Source: Synechococcus elongatus PCC 11801
Lineage (GTDB): Bacteria > Cyanobacteriota > Cyanobacteriia > Synechococcales > Synechococcaceae
DNA: 64,000 bases
Assembly (NCBI RefSeq): GCF_003846445.2
Contig: NZ_CP030139.2
Coordinates: 2,025,223-2,089,222 of the forward strand
Direction of reading: 5' to 3'
Both the position numbers and the translations under genes were made by a program. The notes under the pieces are model-generated. The model did not search any database, was not told where the DNA came from, and was given only the letters and a program-made list of their open reading frames with translations. Below, piece by piece: positions 43,821 to 53,264 of the stretch (positions within the stretch are counted from its first letter, which is position 1; each line of letters begins with the position of its first letter).

Positions 43821-44513
43821 ATGACAGCCCTCGACGACAAGACTATCGTTCGTGACTATTTCAACGCCACGGGCTTCGATCGCTGGAGCCGCATCTACGG
43901 CGATGGCGAGGTCAACTTCGTTCAAAAAAACATCCGCATCGGCCATCAGCGCACCGTTGATACGGTCCTCGCTTGGTTTGAAGCCGACGGCAATGTGAGC
44001 GATCGCAGTTTTTGTGATGCAGGCTGCGGGGTAGGGAGCTTGAGCTTGCCCTTGGCAGCGCGCGGTGCCAAGTCTGTGTTTGCTAGTGACATCTCGGCCA
44101 AGATGGTCGAGGAAGCGCGCGATCGCGCCAGCCAAAGCCTAGGCGACGCTAGCAACCTGCGGCTGGAAGTTTCGGATTTAGCTTCTCTCACAGGTCGTTA
44201 CGACACAGTCATCTGTCTCGATGTTCTGATTCACTACCCCGAAACGGAAGCCGCTGAGATGCTCAGCCATCTGTGTAGCCTGGCGGAACAACGGGTTTTG
44301 GTCAGCTTCGCGCCGAAATCACCCGTCTTGAATGTGCTGAAGCGCATCGGACAGTTCTTCCCCGGTGCCAGCAAAACCACGCGGGCTTACCAACACAGCG
44401 AAACCGCGATCGCAGCAGCCCTTGCAGCCAATGGCTTCCAAGTGCAACGCCGCGCCTTCAATAAAGCGCCGTTCTATTTCTCGCTGCTGCTCGAAGCCGT
44501 TCGTACAGCATAG
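43821..44513 (+). CDS. chlM: Magnesium-protoporphyrin IX methyltransferase
   Basis: The 230-residue SAM-dependent enzyme methylates Mg-protoporphyrin IX in chlorophyll synthesis. The SAM motif FCDAGCGVGSLSLPLAARG lies near residue 75. The C-terminus APFYFSLLLEAVRTA is typical. A diverged copy of this last stretch recurs at 47309-47416, downstream of sbtB. Length and start are standard. Confidence 0.95.
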   Translation: MTALDDKTIVRDYFNATGFDRWSRIYGDGEVNFVQKNIRIGHQRTVDTVLAWFEADGNVSDRSFCDAGCGVGSLSLPLAARGAKSVFASDISAKMVEEARDRASQSLGDASNLRLEVSDLASLTGRYDTVICLDVLIHYPETEAAEMLSHLCSLAEQRVLVSFAPKSPVLNVLKRIGQFFPGASKTTRAYQHSETAIAAALAANGFQVQRRAFNKAPFYFSLLLEAVRTA

Positions 44514-44683
44514 TGCGGTAGCTCAGGCGAGGTTTCCTGATCCGGCGATCAGTCCAAGAATTTCTGGTTAGCTGCGATCGCAGCGATGCATGCTTTTTCC
44601 TAGCTCCCTGCTCGGCATGGGCGAGAAGATTCGCCATTGCTGTAGTTCTTCTGTGACCCTTGTGGGAGCTGGAGGCTCCAATT

Positions 44684-44717
44684 AAAAAATCCGCCCTCGA
44701 ATTCACGAAGGCGGATT
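44684..44717 (-). terminator. Terminator of sbtA
   Basis: AATCCGCC and GGCGGATT form an eight-base stem with a 14-base loop. On the minus strand it is followed by TTTTTAAT. It lies about 95 bases after the sbtA stop; the 297-base interval between chlM and sbtA holds no other gene. Confidence 0.85.
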
Positions 44718-44810
44718 GCTGCAGTGAGACCAGCAAGTTGCTGGGAATCGACAGACCTAAGGAGAGGAGTTGGCCTGCCATCAGTGCGGCAGACCATACA
44801 CCATCTCGAA

Positions 44811-45938
44811 TTAGCCGCCGATAGTTTGAGCAAGCCCAAGGAAGAGCGGGATACACAACCCGATTGCAACGGGTGTCCCGATTGCAGTCGAAGCACCGAT
44901 ATAGGCAGAGGGGTTAGCGGAGGGAATACCAGCGCGCAAAGTCGGGGGGCCTGAGATGTCTGAGCTAGAAGCCGCGATAACGGCTAGAACCACGACACCG
45001 CCCATACTGAAGCCCGTAGCGTAGTGGGCAATCATGCCGAGACCGAAGGCAATGAACCCGTGCACAATCGGAGCGATTATGCTGTAGACGACGTACCACT
45101 GAGCTACTTTGCGCAGTTCACCAATCCGTGACCAAGCCTCCATCCCCATGACCAGCATCAAGATGGAAAGCAGGCCGCGGAAGAGGGGATCGTAGAAGTT
45201 TTCGTAGACACTTTCCGGTCGAGCGAAAAGACCCAGTGCTACGCCGAGCAACATTGCTGAGAGGGCAGGACCTTGGAGGCTTTCTTCCACGATCGGCCAG
45301 ATCTTGACTCGGTTATTGCCAGACCCTTGCTGCTTGCTGAAATACTCTTGCCGGCTGGTGGGGTAATCTGACTGATCCGAGTAATCGCCTGCTGCAACAG
45401 GTTGTTTGCTGAAAGACTCCTGCGCCACGGCATAGGTTGCTTCTTTGCGTTTTTTCTTATTGAGATAAATATTGGCGACCACAATCGCAGTCACGAGCGC
45501 AGGAATATCCATGAAAGGATAAAGTGCGCCAGCCCACGCTTCATAGGGAATTTTTTGCTCTTCAAGGAGTGTCAGTGCCGCAGCCATCGTCGAGCCACTG
45601 ACAGCACCAAATAGCCCTCCTGTCGCGATCGCATCGACCGTTTTGACTTTTGGAAGTCTGGCCAAGGTGTAGCGGGCGATGAAGACGATGAGAATGCCAA
45701 CTGCCACAGAAAATATGGCAGGCAATATCATCTCTGTCAGGTTGGAATTGCGGATAGCTATGCCACCAGTCAGACCGATTTTGATCAGCAGCATGAAGAC
45801 GATGATCTTACAGATCGACTCCGGAATTTGCAGCTGGCTACCCAGGGCAGCAATGACCATCCCACCAATCAGAAAACTGAGTGTTGGCGACTGCAGCTGC
45901 TTAACGAAGTCCATCAAAAAATTGGACAGAAAATCCAC
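44811..45938 (-). CDS. sbtA: Sodium-dependent bicarbonate transporter SbtA
   Basis: The 375-residue membrane protein matches SbtA, a high-affinity HCO3-/Na+ symporter of the carbon-concentrating mechanism. Family features are FVKQLQSPTLSFLIGGMVIA and LLIKIGLTGGIAIRNSNL in the first helices, a large cytosolic loop (about 165-215) and SSSDISGPPTLRAGIPSANPSAYIG near the end, quoted in part. It starts with GTG after AGGAGG. It is divergent from sbtB, unlike tandem sbtAB operons such as in Synechocystis. Confidence 0.96.
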   Translation of the reverse strand: MDFLSNFLMDFVKQLQSPTLSFLIGGMVIAALGSQLQIPESICKIIVFMLLIKIGLTGGIAIRNSNLTEMILPAIFSVAVGILIVFIARYTLARLPKVKTVDAIATGGLFGAVSGSTMAAALTLLEEQKIPYEAWAGALYPFMDIPALVTAIVVANIYLNKKKRKEATYAVAQESFSKQPVAAGDYSDQSDYPTSRQEYFSKQQGSGNNRVKIWPIVEESLQGPALSAMLLGVALGLFARPESVYENFYDPLFRGLLSILMLVMGMEAWSRIGELRKVAQWYVVYSIIAPIVHGFIAFGLGMIAHYATGFSMGGVVVLAVIAASSSDISGPPTLRAGIPSANPSAYIGASTAIGTPVAIGLCIPLFLGLAQTIGG

Positions 45939-47055
<1,117 letters not shown>

Positions 47056-47059
47056 GGCG

Positions 47060-47103
47060 AAGCCCCCGCTCAATGCCCAAAATGTGCCTCAGTGCAGGGG
47101 CTT
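47060..47103 (+). terminator. Possible terminator after sbtB
   Basis: AAGCCCC and GGGGCTT arms are separated by a 30-base loop and followed by TGG. The long loop makes this a weak candidate. Confidence 0.4.
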
Positions 47104-47308
47104 TGGTGGAGTGTTGTAGGGGCGGTGGGGTGAGGGTAGGTTTGTGCAGTCATTAGACTATGTGTTGTTGGAGCGCACCTCCCTCACCGGTATCGCCCGT
47201 GTTCTGTGGCTTTGAGAAAGTGCCTGTGTGAGATGGGAAATGATGCTATCCCTCTAACGACAGGATCAGCAAAGATAGCGATCGCTCGACCGTGATCACA
47301 CTAGATCC

Positions 47309-47416
47309 GCGATCGCTGCTGCGTTAGCGGCCAATGGTTTCCAAGTTCAGCGCCGTGCTTTCAATAAAGCTCCGTTCTATTTCTCGCTTCTGCTGGAAGC
47401 CGTTCGGACTGCTTAA
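47309..47416 (+). pseudogene. Relic of a second chlM 3' end
   Basis: These 108 bases encode the last 35 residues of ChlM (AIAAALAANGFQVQRRAFNK onward) and a stop. Compared with chlM 44406-44513 there are 18 base differences, all synonymous or in the stop codon, so the peptide is identical. Similarity ends at the codon before and after this block. No start or upstream chlM sequence exists here, so it is not expressed as ChlM. It marks a recombination edge with a diverged relative. Confidence 0.93.
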
Positions 47417-47492
47417 TCTGTTGTGTTCTCAAGAAAGTAAATTCAAAGGCTGACAGAAGCCAGTGATTTTTGCATTCACAGACTCATCACTA

Positions 47493-49448
47493 CTAAGACA
47501 AATTAAAAAATCGTTTGAGCTTTCCAAAGAATGAAGAGTCTCTCGCTGGCTCTGTAATTCTAGGTTGCACAAGATTTTTGTTTGCTTGCGCTCGTGCTTG
47601 CGCCTGAGCTCGAACTTTGGCCAATTCAGCTAATTCAGCAAAACGTTTTTGTTCTTGCAGACAGCTTTCACTGCAATAGTGGCAGTTAGAACATGGACAA
47701 ATGAGCTTCTGACAAACAGGACAAGTATGGTGTTCTCCCAAAATTAGGGGACTAAATCCGCATTTACCTTTCCTGTCAACTTTTCCGCCGCAATACGCAA
47801 GTAACGTGGTCCAAGGATCATTACTACTTTTTCTCGCCTGCAATAAACCATTACCAGAGAAGTGAAAGCTGGTGAAACTGCTTAGCCTGATTGAGTCTTT
47901 ATGCTCCCACAGAGTAGTTAAGGTTTCACATAAATCTTTGACTGTATTTAGAGGATCATAAATCCATAATGGATGAGTAGAATCCTTAGATGGATAAATT
48001 ATTTTTGAATAATCTCTAGGTGAAAAATTAGTCGTATTAGATCTTGCCATCAATAAAAAGTGCTTCAGTATTGATAAGTAAAGATATGGCAAAGATATTC
48101 TAGGGTTTGGGCTTGAATATAATATTTCAACAAAGCTTTCAAGCCAAATAGGCTTTGCATCTTCCCAGCTTTTAGGGATAGGATTTTTGGAAGCAATGCA
48201 TACTGCAAAATAATTTAAATACAATGCCTTAGTTAATTCACGGTAGGAGAATGTATCAAATCTGAAATTCTTTCTAATCTCGCATATTGCCTCTAACTGA
48301 TTTTTATAAAATTTGTCATTATAGTCAAACAGCCAAGGTGGTAAATATTCCTCACAATCCTGATAACGATTAAAAGTTAGATAAAAATAGCTGTCTTCAA
48401 AAATATCTTTGAGATGCTTGATTAATGACTTTTGCGTTTCTCCGAGAATGATGGGATTTTTTACGTAAAATGATGTTTGTCCATCATTGATACTTTGCAA
48501 TGTCAGATAAGGTGACAAAACACCTACTATAGTGACATCACTACCATTATTATTCTTAAATTTCTTGACATAGAATTCTGAGTAAGTGCTAGAATTTACT
48601 GACCGTCTTGCATTTTTTACATCAATCAATATTGTGTTGTCTAGGCGTATATCAGCAATCATCCATGCAGTACTTTGATTAGTAATCTGATGGATTGCAA
48701 GATCCTCAACGGAGTAACCTTGGCCCTTATAAAATCTACTCACTAACTTCTCAGCGCCTCTAGCTGAGATCATTTGTGCTTTCCAGTAGTCATTTGAACT
48801 TCTATCACCGCACCATAATTCAGTTAACTCCTCATCGAGTTCACTGAGAGAATATAGATCCTGCCAATGAATAGACAGATGCTGATCAGGATAAATAGAC
48901 TTGTTTAGCTTTAACAAAGCAGAAGCTCTAGACCGTATTGAGTCCTTTCCCTGAATTGTGTTTATAACTTTAGCTTGCTTTTCTTTTTCAAGATTTTGGT
49001 ATTCTGATGTTTTTGAAGATTGACTCGAGTATTTGGCAATTTCTAGAATAAAACTCTGATTAAAAGTTTTCCCTAAAAGGGGTGTTATTTCGTAAACTCT
49101 TTGTAAGTCTAGACTCTTGATATGATGAGCTAAGATTTTAGCAGCTTCTGTATTTCCTTTTTTCTTGGCGTAGATAGAAACTAACTGCAAAACTTGTGCT
49201 ATTTCATGGCTTTTAAGATCTGAAAAATTCAAAGCTAATTTTGTTGTGAGGTGCACTAATGAATAGATAGGCAAATCCAAGGTGGATTTTATATTTATTG
49301 TTTTCATGTCCACTGCTAATTGATAACCATATTCAAATTTTTCTACTATTAATTGGTAATCATATTTAAATTTCTCGTCATTGCTTGTGTCTTTTTTGAT
49401 GATAATACCTACTGCAAAAGCATACTTATTTTCTTTGATATTTGCCAT
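47493..49448 (-). CDS. AT-rich PD-(D/E)XK-like protein with zinc cluster
   Basis: I do not recognise this 651-residue protein. Helical N-terminal regions are followed by RGAEKLVSRFYKGQGYSVED (about 230-249) and AWMIADIRLDNTILIDVKNA; E233, D266, D276 and K278 fit a PD-(D/E)XK nuclease core. Near residues 553-596 there are about ten cysteines (CPVCQKLICPCSNCHYCSESC and two before it), a probable zinc site, then a basic coiled tail. DNA is AT-rich without HIP1 sites, unlike its neighbours. The ATG at 49448 avoids overlap with the HNH gene. Confidence 0.65.
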   Translation of the reverse strand: MANIKENKYAFAVGIIIKKDTSNDEKFKYDYQLIVEKFEYGYQLAVDMKTINIKSTLDLPIYSLVHLTTKLALNFSDLKSHEIAQVLQLVSIYAKKKGNTEAAKILAHHIKSLDLQRVYEITPLLGKTFNQSFILEIAKYSSQSSKTSEYQNLEKEKQAKVINTIQGKDSIRSRASALLKLNKSIYPDQHLSIHWQDLYSLSELDEELTELWCGDRSSNDYWKAQMISARGAEKLVSRFYKGQGYSVEDLAIHQITNQSTAWMIADIRLDNTILIDVKNARRSVNSSTYSEFYVKKFKNNNGSDVTIVGVLSPYLTLQSINDGQTSFYVKNPIILGETQKSLIKHLKDIFEDSYFYLTFNRYQDCEEYLPPWLFDYNDKFYKNQLEAICEIRKNFRFDTFSYRELTKALYLNYFAVCIASKNPIPKSWEDAKPIWLESFVEILYSSPNPRISLPYLYLSILKHFLLMARSNTTNFSPRDYSKIIYPSKDSTHPLWIYDPLNTVKDLCETLTTLWEHKDSIRLSSFTSFHFSGNGLLQARKSSNDPWTTLLAYCGGKVDRKGKCGFSPLILGEHHTCPVCQKLICPCSNCHYCSESCLQEQKRFAELAELAKVRAQAQARAQANKNLVQPRITEPARDSSFFGKLKRFFNLS

Positions 49449-49600: not shown

Positions 49601-49897
49601 CTAACGCTGGCGATGATTGGGGGGATCGTAGAAATCGGGTGGATGGCGTCGCACCCACTTGAGAAAACGCTGCACTTCCGGATGCGATCGCAGGCGATCG
49701 GGGGTGTTGTAGAACAGCGCTAGCTCCTGTTCACTGAACAGCGAATGAATTTTGCGATGGCAGATTTGATGGACATACAGCCATTCCTTACCGCCATGAC
49801 TGCGGGGTAAAAAGTGATGGCGATCGACAAAGCGATCCTTCCATAGGGGGCGATCGCAGAGGGGGCAAGGACCGAGGTCTTGGGGTGCTGCGGGCAT
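49601..49897 (-). CDS. Small HNH endonuclease
   Basis: The 98-residue protein has CPLCDRPL, then DRHHFLPRSHGGKEW and ICHRKIHSLF, which form an HNH metal site with a zinc-binding cysteine pair. Small stand-alone HNH proteins of this size are common in cyanobacteria, and their role is unclear. GC content and HIP1 sites match the core genome. It follows the TIGR03943 gene after 14 bases, so it may belong to that operon. Confidence 0.88.
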   Translation of the reverse strand: MPAAPQDLGPCPLCDRPLWKDRFVDRHHFLPRSHGGKEWLYVHQICHRKIHSLFSEQELALFYNTPDRLRSHPEVQRFLKWVRRHPPDFYDPPNHRQR

Positions 49898-51682: not shown

Positions 51683-51752
51683 TGCTAGGAGGAGCAGATT
51701 GCCGCTATTCTATCGGCTCACCCTGCTTTGCTACGATTTGGGGTGTTTGCTT

Positions 51753-51826
51753 GGGGCTGTAGCTCAGCTGGATAGAGCAAGCGCCTCCTAAGCGCTAGGC
51801 CGCGCGTTCAAATCGCGCCAGTCCCG
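51753..51826 (+). tRNA. tRNA-Arg (anticodon CCU)
   Basis: The 74-base sequence folds as a cloverleaf: acceptor GGGGCTG/CAGTCCC with one G-U pair, D stem GCTC/GAGC, anticodon stem AGCGC/GCGCT with loop CTCCTAA, T stem GCGCG/CGCGC with loop TTCAAAT, and discriminator G. The anticodon is CCU, reading AGG. No CCA is encoded. It ends 31 bases before the recombinase-like gene. Confidence 0.95.
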
Positions 51827-51857
51827 TTTCACCACTCAGCGACCTGTGCTCCCCTAC

Positions 51858-53066
51858 TTAGACTGGTGCGGTCAAGAAAGCTGAAAGATCCTCTGTATCG
51901 GTGGCAGTCCAGCGGTGACTGGGGCGATCGCCGTTGAGATTACTGAGCGGATCGGAAGCGGCATCGTGAATCAGGACTTTATTGATAAAGGTCTGCTCGT
52001 CCATGACTTTATGGGTGGCTTCCCGCCAGCGTTGGAAGGCGATCTGGGCATACCAAATTCGCCCGTCGATCGGTGCCAAGCTGCCCAGTTGGAACCCTTG
52101 CCGAAGCACAGGCCGTAGACAGGGCAAATACTGCTGAATGCTGGATTCCATGCCGGGATAGGCTTGCTGCCTCAGTAAGTCCAAATGAATTCTGGGGCTG
52201 TACCAAGCGGCAAGTGCTGTCAGTTCTGCTAGGACTTTGACATGGGCTTGAGCAATGAGCTGCGGATTGCCCAACGGTCGGATTTTAAAGGTCTTGGCCT
52301 GTGGATCGTTGCCTTGGTGCATGCCATGAATCAGCAGACAGCCATCATCGCTGGGTTGGAACCGAGCATCGCGCAACACTTCGAGGAAAGGACGCCGTCC
52401 AGTCAGAATCACGATCGCGATCGCGGCATCATAGGCCAACTGAAGCCTCGGCACCATCGTCATCACGGGATTCAGTGCTTGCGGATCGGCACTGCTGGAA
52501 CTCGTGTAGTGCGGAATGCGCAAGGAGGCTGCCGTCAGTCGAGGTGATTGATGGGTCAGAAACTCTTGCAATGTAGAAATTGCTTGACCCAGCAGTAATT
52601 GACAAACAGAGGGGGGCAGGGGAATGCGTGCTTGTTGGTCTGCGAGCGAGCTAACGTCCTGCGTCAGTTGAGGATTCGTTCGTACAACATCTCGTGCAGT
52701 TCCCAGCGATTGCACATAGGTAGTTAGCCATGTACAGGGTTCATCCCCGATGGGAATGCGATCGACATTCTGATGGGGTGTCAGTTGCTCCCAATCACCA
52801 GAACGATTGAGTTCTAGGCTGCTGGGGCGCCACATCCAGCCGCGAGCTGCCAATTCATGCCGCACCTGATTGCGAAGGGTGCTTTGGTAGCGCTTTAACG
52901 TGGACTCGTCGGTCTTATTTTCAATCCAGCTTTTGACGATGCTTTCACAGTATTGACAAGCGCGTTTCTTCGCACTGACATCGCGATGGTTCCAATACTG
53001 CTCCCAGCCATCACAAATTGTGCTGACAATGGTCTCAAATTGTTCTTGGAGTGGCTGATCATCCAT
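51858..53066 (-). CDS. Recombinase/telomere-resolvase-like protein lacking a C-terminal tyrosine
   Basis: The 402-residue protein has AIAIVILTGRRPFLEVL near residue 222-238, then AKTFKIRPL, GRIWYAQIAFQRW and VLIHDAASD, an order and spacing like the R-K-R-H catalytic residues of tyrosine recombinases and protelomerases (residues R224, K258/K261, R336, H367). No tyrosine occurs after Y339, where the nucleophile would be expected. The N-terminal half is helical. It lies next to a tRNA gene and points toward it. Identification is tentative. The ATG at 53066 was preferred to a GTG at 53108. Confidence 0.5.
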   Translation of the reverse strand: MDDQPLQEQFETIVSTICDGWEQYWNHRDVSAKKRACQYCESIVKSWIENKTDESTLKRYQSTLRNQVRHELAARGWMWRPSSLELNRSGDWEQLTPHQNVDRIPIGDEPCTWLTTYVQSLGTARDVVRTNPQLTQDVSSLADQQARIPLPPSVCQLLLGQAISTLQEFLTHQSPRLTAASLRIPHYTSSSSADPQALNPVMTMVPRLQLAYDAAIAIVILTGRRPFLEVLRDARFQPSDDGCLLIHGMHQGNDPQAKTFKIRPLGNPQLIAQAHVKVLAELTALAAWYSPRIHLDLLRQQAYPGMESSIQQYLPCLRPVLRQGFQLGSLAPIDGRIWYAQIAFQRWREATHKVMDEQTFINKVLIHDAASDPLSNLNGDRPSHRWTATDTEDLSAFLTAPV

Positions 53067-53264
53067 TGTTAATCGATCGCAATGTCCCTGTCCCAGCAAG
53101 GAATACACAAGGTTGATGAGCCCATGACAGGCCTAGGCACCGTCCCAGCCCAGTCTGTCTATGCGCTGCTGAGTGGCTAATCACTCCTTGTAATAAGCCC
53201 GAGTCTATGGATTAGCTGAGCTCTTAAGCAATACTTCTGATTGTTGGACGTGATCGAACGGGGC

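Follow-up and report, generated by a model that had tools for sequence, protein, structure and literature searches.

A predicted PD-(D/E)XK-zinc protein of Synechococcus elongatus PCC 11801 belongs to a candidate family of modular phage-defence proteins

Beside the sbtA-sbtB genes of Synechococcus elongatus PCC 11801 lies an open reading frame that an earlier note, made from the DNA alone, could not place in any family and proposed as a new defence or nucleic-acid-processing protein. What does this gene encode, and what can its relatives tell us about its role? We analysed the whole 64-kb stretch of DNA in which it lies (the window), together with homologues from other genomes and plasmids. 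The gene occupies 47493..49448 on the minus strand and encodes a protein of 651 aa plus stop (P0001), with an ATG start at 49448 and zero internal stops. The ORF call and an alignment of 21 members identify it as part of a family with a predicted PD-(D/E)XK core and an eight-cysteine cluster. A 721-aa version starting at an in-frame GTG at 49658 was rejected, since it would run into the HNH gene and the 70 residues gained have no family counterpart. The earlier description of the DNA as AT-rich and lacking HIP1 octamers was borne out, with a GC content of 0.349 for the ORF vs 0.547 for the window, and 0 HIP1 sites vs 149. The HIP1-free gap around the gene, 2375 bp, is the second longest in the window. 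Low GC and HIP1 scarcity support a recent acquisition of the gene, as judged from its composition, and are no support for a function.

The gene does adjoin a recombination relic, as had been noted. Downstream of it, 47307..47428 (about 120 bp, no strand assigned) is a duplicated 3' end of a bchM-like gene, about 84% identical to 44404-44512 at the 3' end of that gene, as blastn searches of the window and of the sister genome showed. The other border is an HNH-like ORF (49601..49897, minus strand), which is conserved in the sister species at L089:8731-9036. The sister species has neither the P0001 gene nor the paralog described below. Since its bchM-HNH interval (L089:7386-8424) contains the remains of a CoiA-type nuclease, spread over two overlapping frames, and not the P0001 gene, this interval is, on the comparison of the two genomes, an accessory-gene insertion hotspot.

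Three further observations concern the surroundings of the gene. The two copies of the bchM-like 3' end flank the sbtA-sbtB pair (window 44404-47428), which is missing from the same place in the sister species; this suggests that the pair was inserted by duplication or recombination. On the other side, a 416-aa protein encoded at 51858-53108 (minus strand) matches the Pfam ResT/TelK telomere-resolvase catalytic domain above cut-off (3.2e-7); its gene adjoins tRNA-Arg(cct) at 51752-51827 and is also present in the sister species (L089:11041-12249). To our knowledge, a protelomerase-like protein is unusual for a cyanobacterium. Going by the sbtA/sbtB numbering, the PCC 7942 locus tag of the P0001 gene is presumably Synpcc7942_1477, and a literature search found no paper naming this presumed tag.

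P0001 has zero Pfam, NCBIfam or PADLOC matches at E<=1, in agreement with the failure of the earlier note to place it in a family, and a PHROGs search returned weak unknown families only. Its own genome carries a paralog of 42% identity, and one relative is present in genome G096. Homologues were found at 17 genome loci, in cyanobacteria, Pseudomonas, Sulfuricurvum and Sulfurimonas, and on five plasmids, from Synechocystis, Variovorax, Microvirga, Sinorhizobium and Roseomonas. A family profile matched 11 of 386 sampled genomes (further cyanobacterial ones), a few of them over the cold-shock part only. A phage origin of P0001 was rejected, as neither a tblastn search of 50,697 phage records nor a search of viral contigs gave a family homologue. 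The distribution of the family is thus patchy, with plasmid copies. One of these, on a plasmid of Synechocystis sp. B12 (L024:9785-11163), has a broken frame, is annotated as two hypothetical proteins and lies near DUF1156 and DUF3883 genes.

The family alignment comprises 21 diverse members, from cyanobacteria, alpha-, beta- and gammaproteobacteria and Campylobacterota, with identities to P0001 from 42% down to about 20%. It contains 26 invariant columns, which include E233, D266, D276, K278 and eight cysteines, as well as W212, D249, Q254, W262, N279 and K298. Of the columns in which the other 20 members are invariant, P0001 keeps 26/26, and of the near-invariant ones 48/49.

A restriction-type nuclease core had been read from the order of E233, D266 and a DxK motif at 276-278. 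The loose pattern E..D..(D/E)xK arises in 76% of shuffled P0001 sequences, so the pattern alone is no evidence and the claim rests on conservation. All four residues are present at those positions and are invariant in the 21 members. The codon of the helix A glutamate E233, within 'RGAEKLV', lies at 48750..48752, that of D266, the predicted metal-binding aspartate of 'ADI', at 48651..48653, and the D276-V277-K278 codons of the DxK motif, within 'IDVKN', at 48615..48623, all on the minus strand. The same E, D and DxK residues are also present in both retron-linked members described below. The core as a whole is predicted to span residues 220-350 (48399..48791, minus strand) from these residues, an AlphaFold2 (AF2) model, Foldseek and the NOV_C profile.

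The AF2 model of P0001, built with 17 homologues, has a mean pLDDT of 73.9, and of 85-95 across most of the core. It predicts a helix at 220-242, which carries E233, and strands at 247-249, 267-269, 273-281, 306-312 and 333-338, with D266 at the edge of strand 267-269 and the DxK in strand 273-281. The resulting order, alpha-beta-beta-beta-(283-292)-beta-alpha-beta, agrees with the alpha-beta-beta-beta-alpha-beta core of PD-(D/E)XK domains except in the helix B region 283-292, which is of low confidence. When the undivided model was compared with solved structures using Foldseek, the best PDB neighbours were PD-(D/E)XK enzymes, namely influenza PA-N endonuclease, NhoI, Eco15I and HincII, with weak E values of 0.3-1.8 and low TM scores; a sequence search of the core against solved structures gave no match. 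The modelled topology and these weak neighbours lend support, short of proof, to the restriction-type core that had been proposed. Neither a model devoid of a nuclease fold nor unconserved acidic residues, the outcomes that the earlier note had set against its own reading, was found.

Profile-profile comparison places the family nearest to NOV_C/DUF3883 (PF13020), a domain of defence helicases such as HmaA, with D266 corresponding to the aspartate of 'GYDI' and DVK to EVK. The hhalign score of 26.1 was reached by 0/150 column shuffles, which averaged 11.0 (sd 2.2). The motif order of NOV_C is in register with that of our family, and both occur in defence operons. Unlike NOV_C/DUF3883, the family has GAE and DVKN signatures, an invariant Q254, W262 and K298 and the eight-cysteine cluster, and lacks a helicase; no member of the 21 matched the PF13020 model at E<=1. 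The Mrr family (Mrr_cat, PF04471) was also considered and rejected, with no Pfam match and an hhalign score equalled by 4/150 shuffles. As judged by these profiles, the family is distantly related to PD-(D/E)XK domains of the NOV_C type but is defined separately and lies outside the Pfam family.

Towards the C-terminus, about ten cysteines at 553-596 and a basic coiled tail had been described. The cluster is real: P0001 has nine cysteines in this region, eight of which are invariant in the 21 members, with C586 variable. In P0001 the invariant ones follow the pattern C553-x9-C563-x12-C576-x2-C579-x4-C584-x4-C589-x2-C592-x3-C596 (47661..47792, minus strand); each of the eight is present in 21/21 members, and in 0/5000 shuffles of P0001 did at least 8 cysteines fall within 44 residues. 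Relatives gave weak Pfam matches to zf-C2HC5 and DUF2116 'treble clef' over this region, and its comparison with solved structures returned weak zinc-finger-like matches only. The cluster is predicted to bind two zinc ions. The basic tail at residues 597-651 (47496..47660, minus strand) is a predicted helix, as had been said, but is not conserved across the family. What is common to the members is the pairing of a predicted PD-(D/E)XK core with an invariant eight-cysteine cluster.

The N-terminus sets P0001 apart from its relatives. Residues 1-180 (48909..49448, minus strand) are unique and mostly helical in the AF2 model, with low pLDDT at 1-53, helices at 61-182 and partial disorder; they have no credible relative, giving chance-level matches only among 377 genomes. 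This region replaces a cold-shock and WDIAP helical module. Full-length relatives begin with one or two cold-shock domains, marked by the motif 'WFGGxNxKxxxxNxxGFI'; helical repeats come next, and after these the nuclease, a second helical stretch and the cluster of cysteines. The Pfam CSD model matched 8/21 members (best 1.4e-6), and a Foldseek search with the model of a Pseudomonas member returned the cold-shock domains of human UNR and YBX2 with probability 1.00. Weak matches to retron cold-shock models were also obtained, to PADLOC CSD_V in 5/21 members and to NCBIfam NF038236 (retron Se72 effector) in 4/21 (4.2e-5, 2.4e-4). P0001 was unmatched by either model, and the retron-linked members at L052 and L053 were unmatched by PADLOC CSD_V. 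The paralog in the same genome (L005:7724-10300; G000:C1:2226.7-2229.3 kb) has intact nuclease and zinc parts and retains the cold-shock start, with an in-frame TAA inside the cold-shock domain.

Other proteins carry the same parts in different combinations. The member in G096 (L006:8903-11767) ends in a fused SSB domain (8.8e-20). The gene next to it (L006:7938-8759) encodes a DUF3800 protein that matches PADLOC DUF3800_VII (retron type VII, 6.7e-21), with no RT nearby. A protein of G398 joins this cold-shock/helical front end to DarT (4.4e-43; L054:6214-7455); its gene is preceded by a UvrD/SLFN-type helicase and followed by a macro-domain gene (L054:5455-6210), apparently a sensor-bearing variant of DarTG. 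The likeness to DarTG lies in this joining of the front end to DarT beside a macro-domain gene; the DarT effector is an ADP-ribosyltransferase, whereas that of our family is a predicted nuclease. A 554-aa protein of G190 (L055:5933-7597) shares the cold-shock front end and also has helical repeats and, at its C-terminus, zinc-ribbon-like cysteines, without the nuclease core. Since the same front end is joined to DarT in one case and to a zinc-ribbon-like part in the other, these fusions support a sensor/effector arrangement, of which P0001 would carry the effector half.

It might be argued that the nuclease fold is catalytically dead and that these proteins are nucleic-acid-binding regulators or toxin neutralisers. 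The best structural support is indeed for binding modules (cold-shock domain, zinc cluster, SSB), and defence proteins such as CoCoNuTs often contain dead PD-(D/E)XK domains (PMC11090510). The E, D, D and K residues of our family are, however, invariant across three bacterial phyla. Dead nucleases usually lose these residues, and we regard this explanation as very improbable.

A link to a known type of system came from retrons, which are recognised by a conserved msr, a variable msd and conserved a1/a2 repeats. Two members are the third gene of retron loci that hold a retron RT, an HEPN-like protein and the family member, together with an msr-msd region with a1/a2. In G496 (L052) the RT matches PADLOC RT-Protease_XI (1.5e-140), and ahead of it inverted repeats of 16 nt (94%) at 4941-4956/5071-5086, with 114 nt between them, bound an msr-msd region whose RNA fold has a z-score of -7.0. 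A 244-aa protein between the RT and the family member has an HEPN-like RDAASH motif, read by eye and without a Pfam match, and the family member starts 24 bp past its gene. Rfam gave only a chance match below threshold for the retron region, whose RNA was identified instead through its inverted repeat and conserved msr.

The second genome, G456, belongs to the same genus. Its RT is 74% identical to that of G496 and its msr almost identical, whereas the msd has diverged; the a1/a2 pair is perfect over 12 nt. Its HEPN-like gene is homologous to that of G496 (E 5e-13) and sits with the effector on a separate contig end from the RT. The two contig ends (L139 on contig C109; L053 on contig C1) carry inverted copies of the same ~95-bp sequence; the locus was apparently split between the RT and the HEPN-like gene by an insertion element, and we infer adjacency of RT and effector from this arrangement. 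Both loci thus contain the expected parts of a retron, namely an RT, an msr-msd region bounded by a1/a2 and a predicted effector gene. Most family members have no RT nearby, and no RVT_1 protein was found in the genome of the window.

Some known retron effectors (CSD_V of type V; NF038236 of retron Se72) also have an N-terminal cold-shock domain. Unlike these, our family adds a predicted PD-(D/E)XK core and a zinc cluster, and an HEPN-like protein is present; the family-linked RT groups with the PADLOC I-C/XI/XII models and not with V. A second comparison is with the CoCoNuT type IV restriction systems, in which cold-shock domains occur together with PD-(D/E)xK nucleases, zinc ribbons and HEAT-like repeats (PMC11090510). 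Our family resembles them in having cold-shock, PD-(D/E)xK, zinc and helical-repeat parts, all in one polypeptide; unlike CoCoNuT it is without the McrB GTPase and McrC DUF2357. An McrB domain was found in no member of the 21 and none was recognised in the window flanks.

Elsewhere, members were found next to established defence genes. The member at L051 sits between HmaA (6e-199) and HmaB (2e-149)/HmaC (2e-136), and that of the Sinorhizobium plasmid lies directly upstream of GajA (1e-227)/GajB (2e-176). Hma as known consists of HmaABC and Gabija of GajAB; members thus occur inside the one or directly upstream of the other, yet are not a catalogued component of either. Hma components are absent at the window, and none were recognised at the other loci examined besides L051. 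The member at L007 adjoins PDC-S19 (2e-149). On the Roseomonas plasmid, genes for a C5 methyltransferase, Vsr, HNH and HEPN proteins lie near the family gene, and on the Microvirga plasmid it adjoins genes of a Dnd-associated methyltransferase and of the FtsK/HerA type. In most cases the family gene is solitary among housekeeping genes, without a universal partner. Such an operon partner was looked for and rejected, the RT, DUF3800, macro-domain and PDC-S19 neighbours each occurring in at most one or two loci. The earlier proposal of a new defence protein gains from the Hma, Gabija, PDC-S19 and two retron contexts of relatives, which are individual loci in a family most of whose members are solitary. 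Since most relatives carry predicted nucleic-acid-sensing domains and several have defence genes around them, the family probably represents a little-studied part of bacterial immunity.

These proteins could instead be mobile-element or DNA-repair nucleases, selfish or restriction-like, whose presence in defence islands reflects shared mobile DNA. The plasmid-borne members, the insertion hotspot that holds the P0001 gene, the HNH ORF beside it and the CoiA-type relic that fills the sister-species interval would all suit this explanation, and the SSB fusion is also compatible with repair. It accounts poorly, however, for members that come third in the retron cassettes of two genomes, with 24 bp to the neighbouring gene where the cassette is intact, for a member inside an Hma operon, for a cold-shock front end held in common with a DarT toxin fusion, and for the lack of homologues in phages or viral contigs. 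We consider it quite unlikely.

Our preferred explanation, which we hold as fairly probable on the strength of these comparisons, is that P0001 is the effector nuclease of a modular, nucleic-acid-triggered phage-defence family, and that the window copy is an accessory version without the sensor. The cold-shock/helical front end would recognise RNA or single-stranded DNA, for example phage nucleic acid. Retron complexes are known to keep their effector inactive until infection (PMC12548924); an alternative trigger would be retron msDNA that sequesters the family protein until that moment. The zinc cluster may aid DNA/RNA binding or assembly. Once triggered, the Mg2+-dependent PD-(D/E)XK core would cut phage or host nucleic acid, and this cleavage would halt the infection, probably as abortive infection.

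The S. elongatus copy would be a horizontally acquired accessory gene in the bchM-HNH hotspot, with its catalytic and zinc parts under constraint and its cold-shock sensor swapped for an unrelated N-terminus. Because the window copy has no sensor and the genome no RT, it would represent a variant that works alone and responds to another trigger, or else a system that is losing its control module. A further explanation is that the P0001 gene is a decaying, non-functional remnant of a family that is active elsewhere. P0001 is without the cold-shock sensor, its N-terminus is of low confidence and has no relatives, an in-frame TAA interrupts the paralog, and no RT was found in the genome; together, the sensor-less P0001, the broken paralog and the lack of RVT_1 mean that the S. 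elongatus copies may be remnants. Against decay stand 651 open codons at 35% GC, with all 26 invariant and 48 of 49 near-invariant residues in place. That all invariant residues are kept favours a functional P0001 but is no proof of it, and we think a remnant rather unlikely.

For the family as a whole we tentatively propose, with slightly less than even confidence, an uncatalogued modular immune family in which a cold-shock/helical sensor is combined with interchangeable killers (a PD-(D/E)XK-zinc nuclease, DarT and others). Its members would form a one-gene defence, or else serve as effector in a candidate undescribed retron subtype, made up of an RT, an HEPN-like protein and a CSD-nuclease-zinc protein.

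An ORF beside a model carbon-uptake locus that could formerly not be placed now belongs to a family with a testable role, and provides a candidate defence gene for a genetically tractable cyanobacterium. The family ties the cold-shock domains of type V retrons and CoCoNuTs to a predicted PD-(D/E)XK-zinc nuclease. For direct tests there are now two full sets of retron components (an RT, an msr-msd, an HEPN-like protein and an effector), of which one is contiguous. If it is true that the cold-shock front end triggers the nuclease and DarT alike, the same sensing mechanism would be open to study in several systems.
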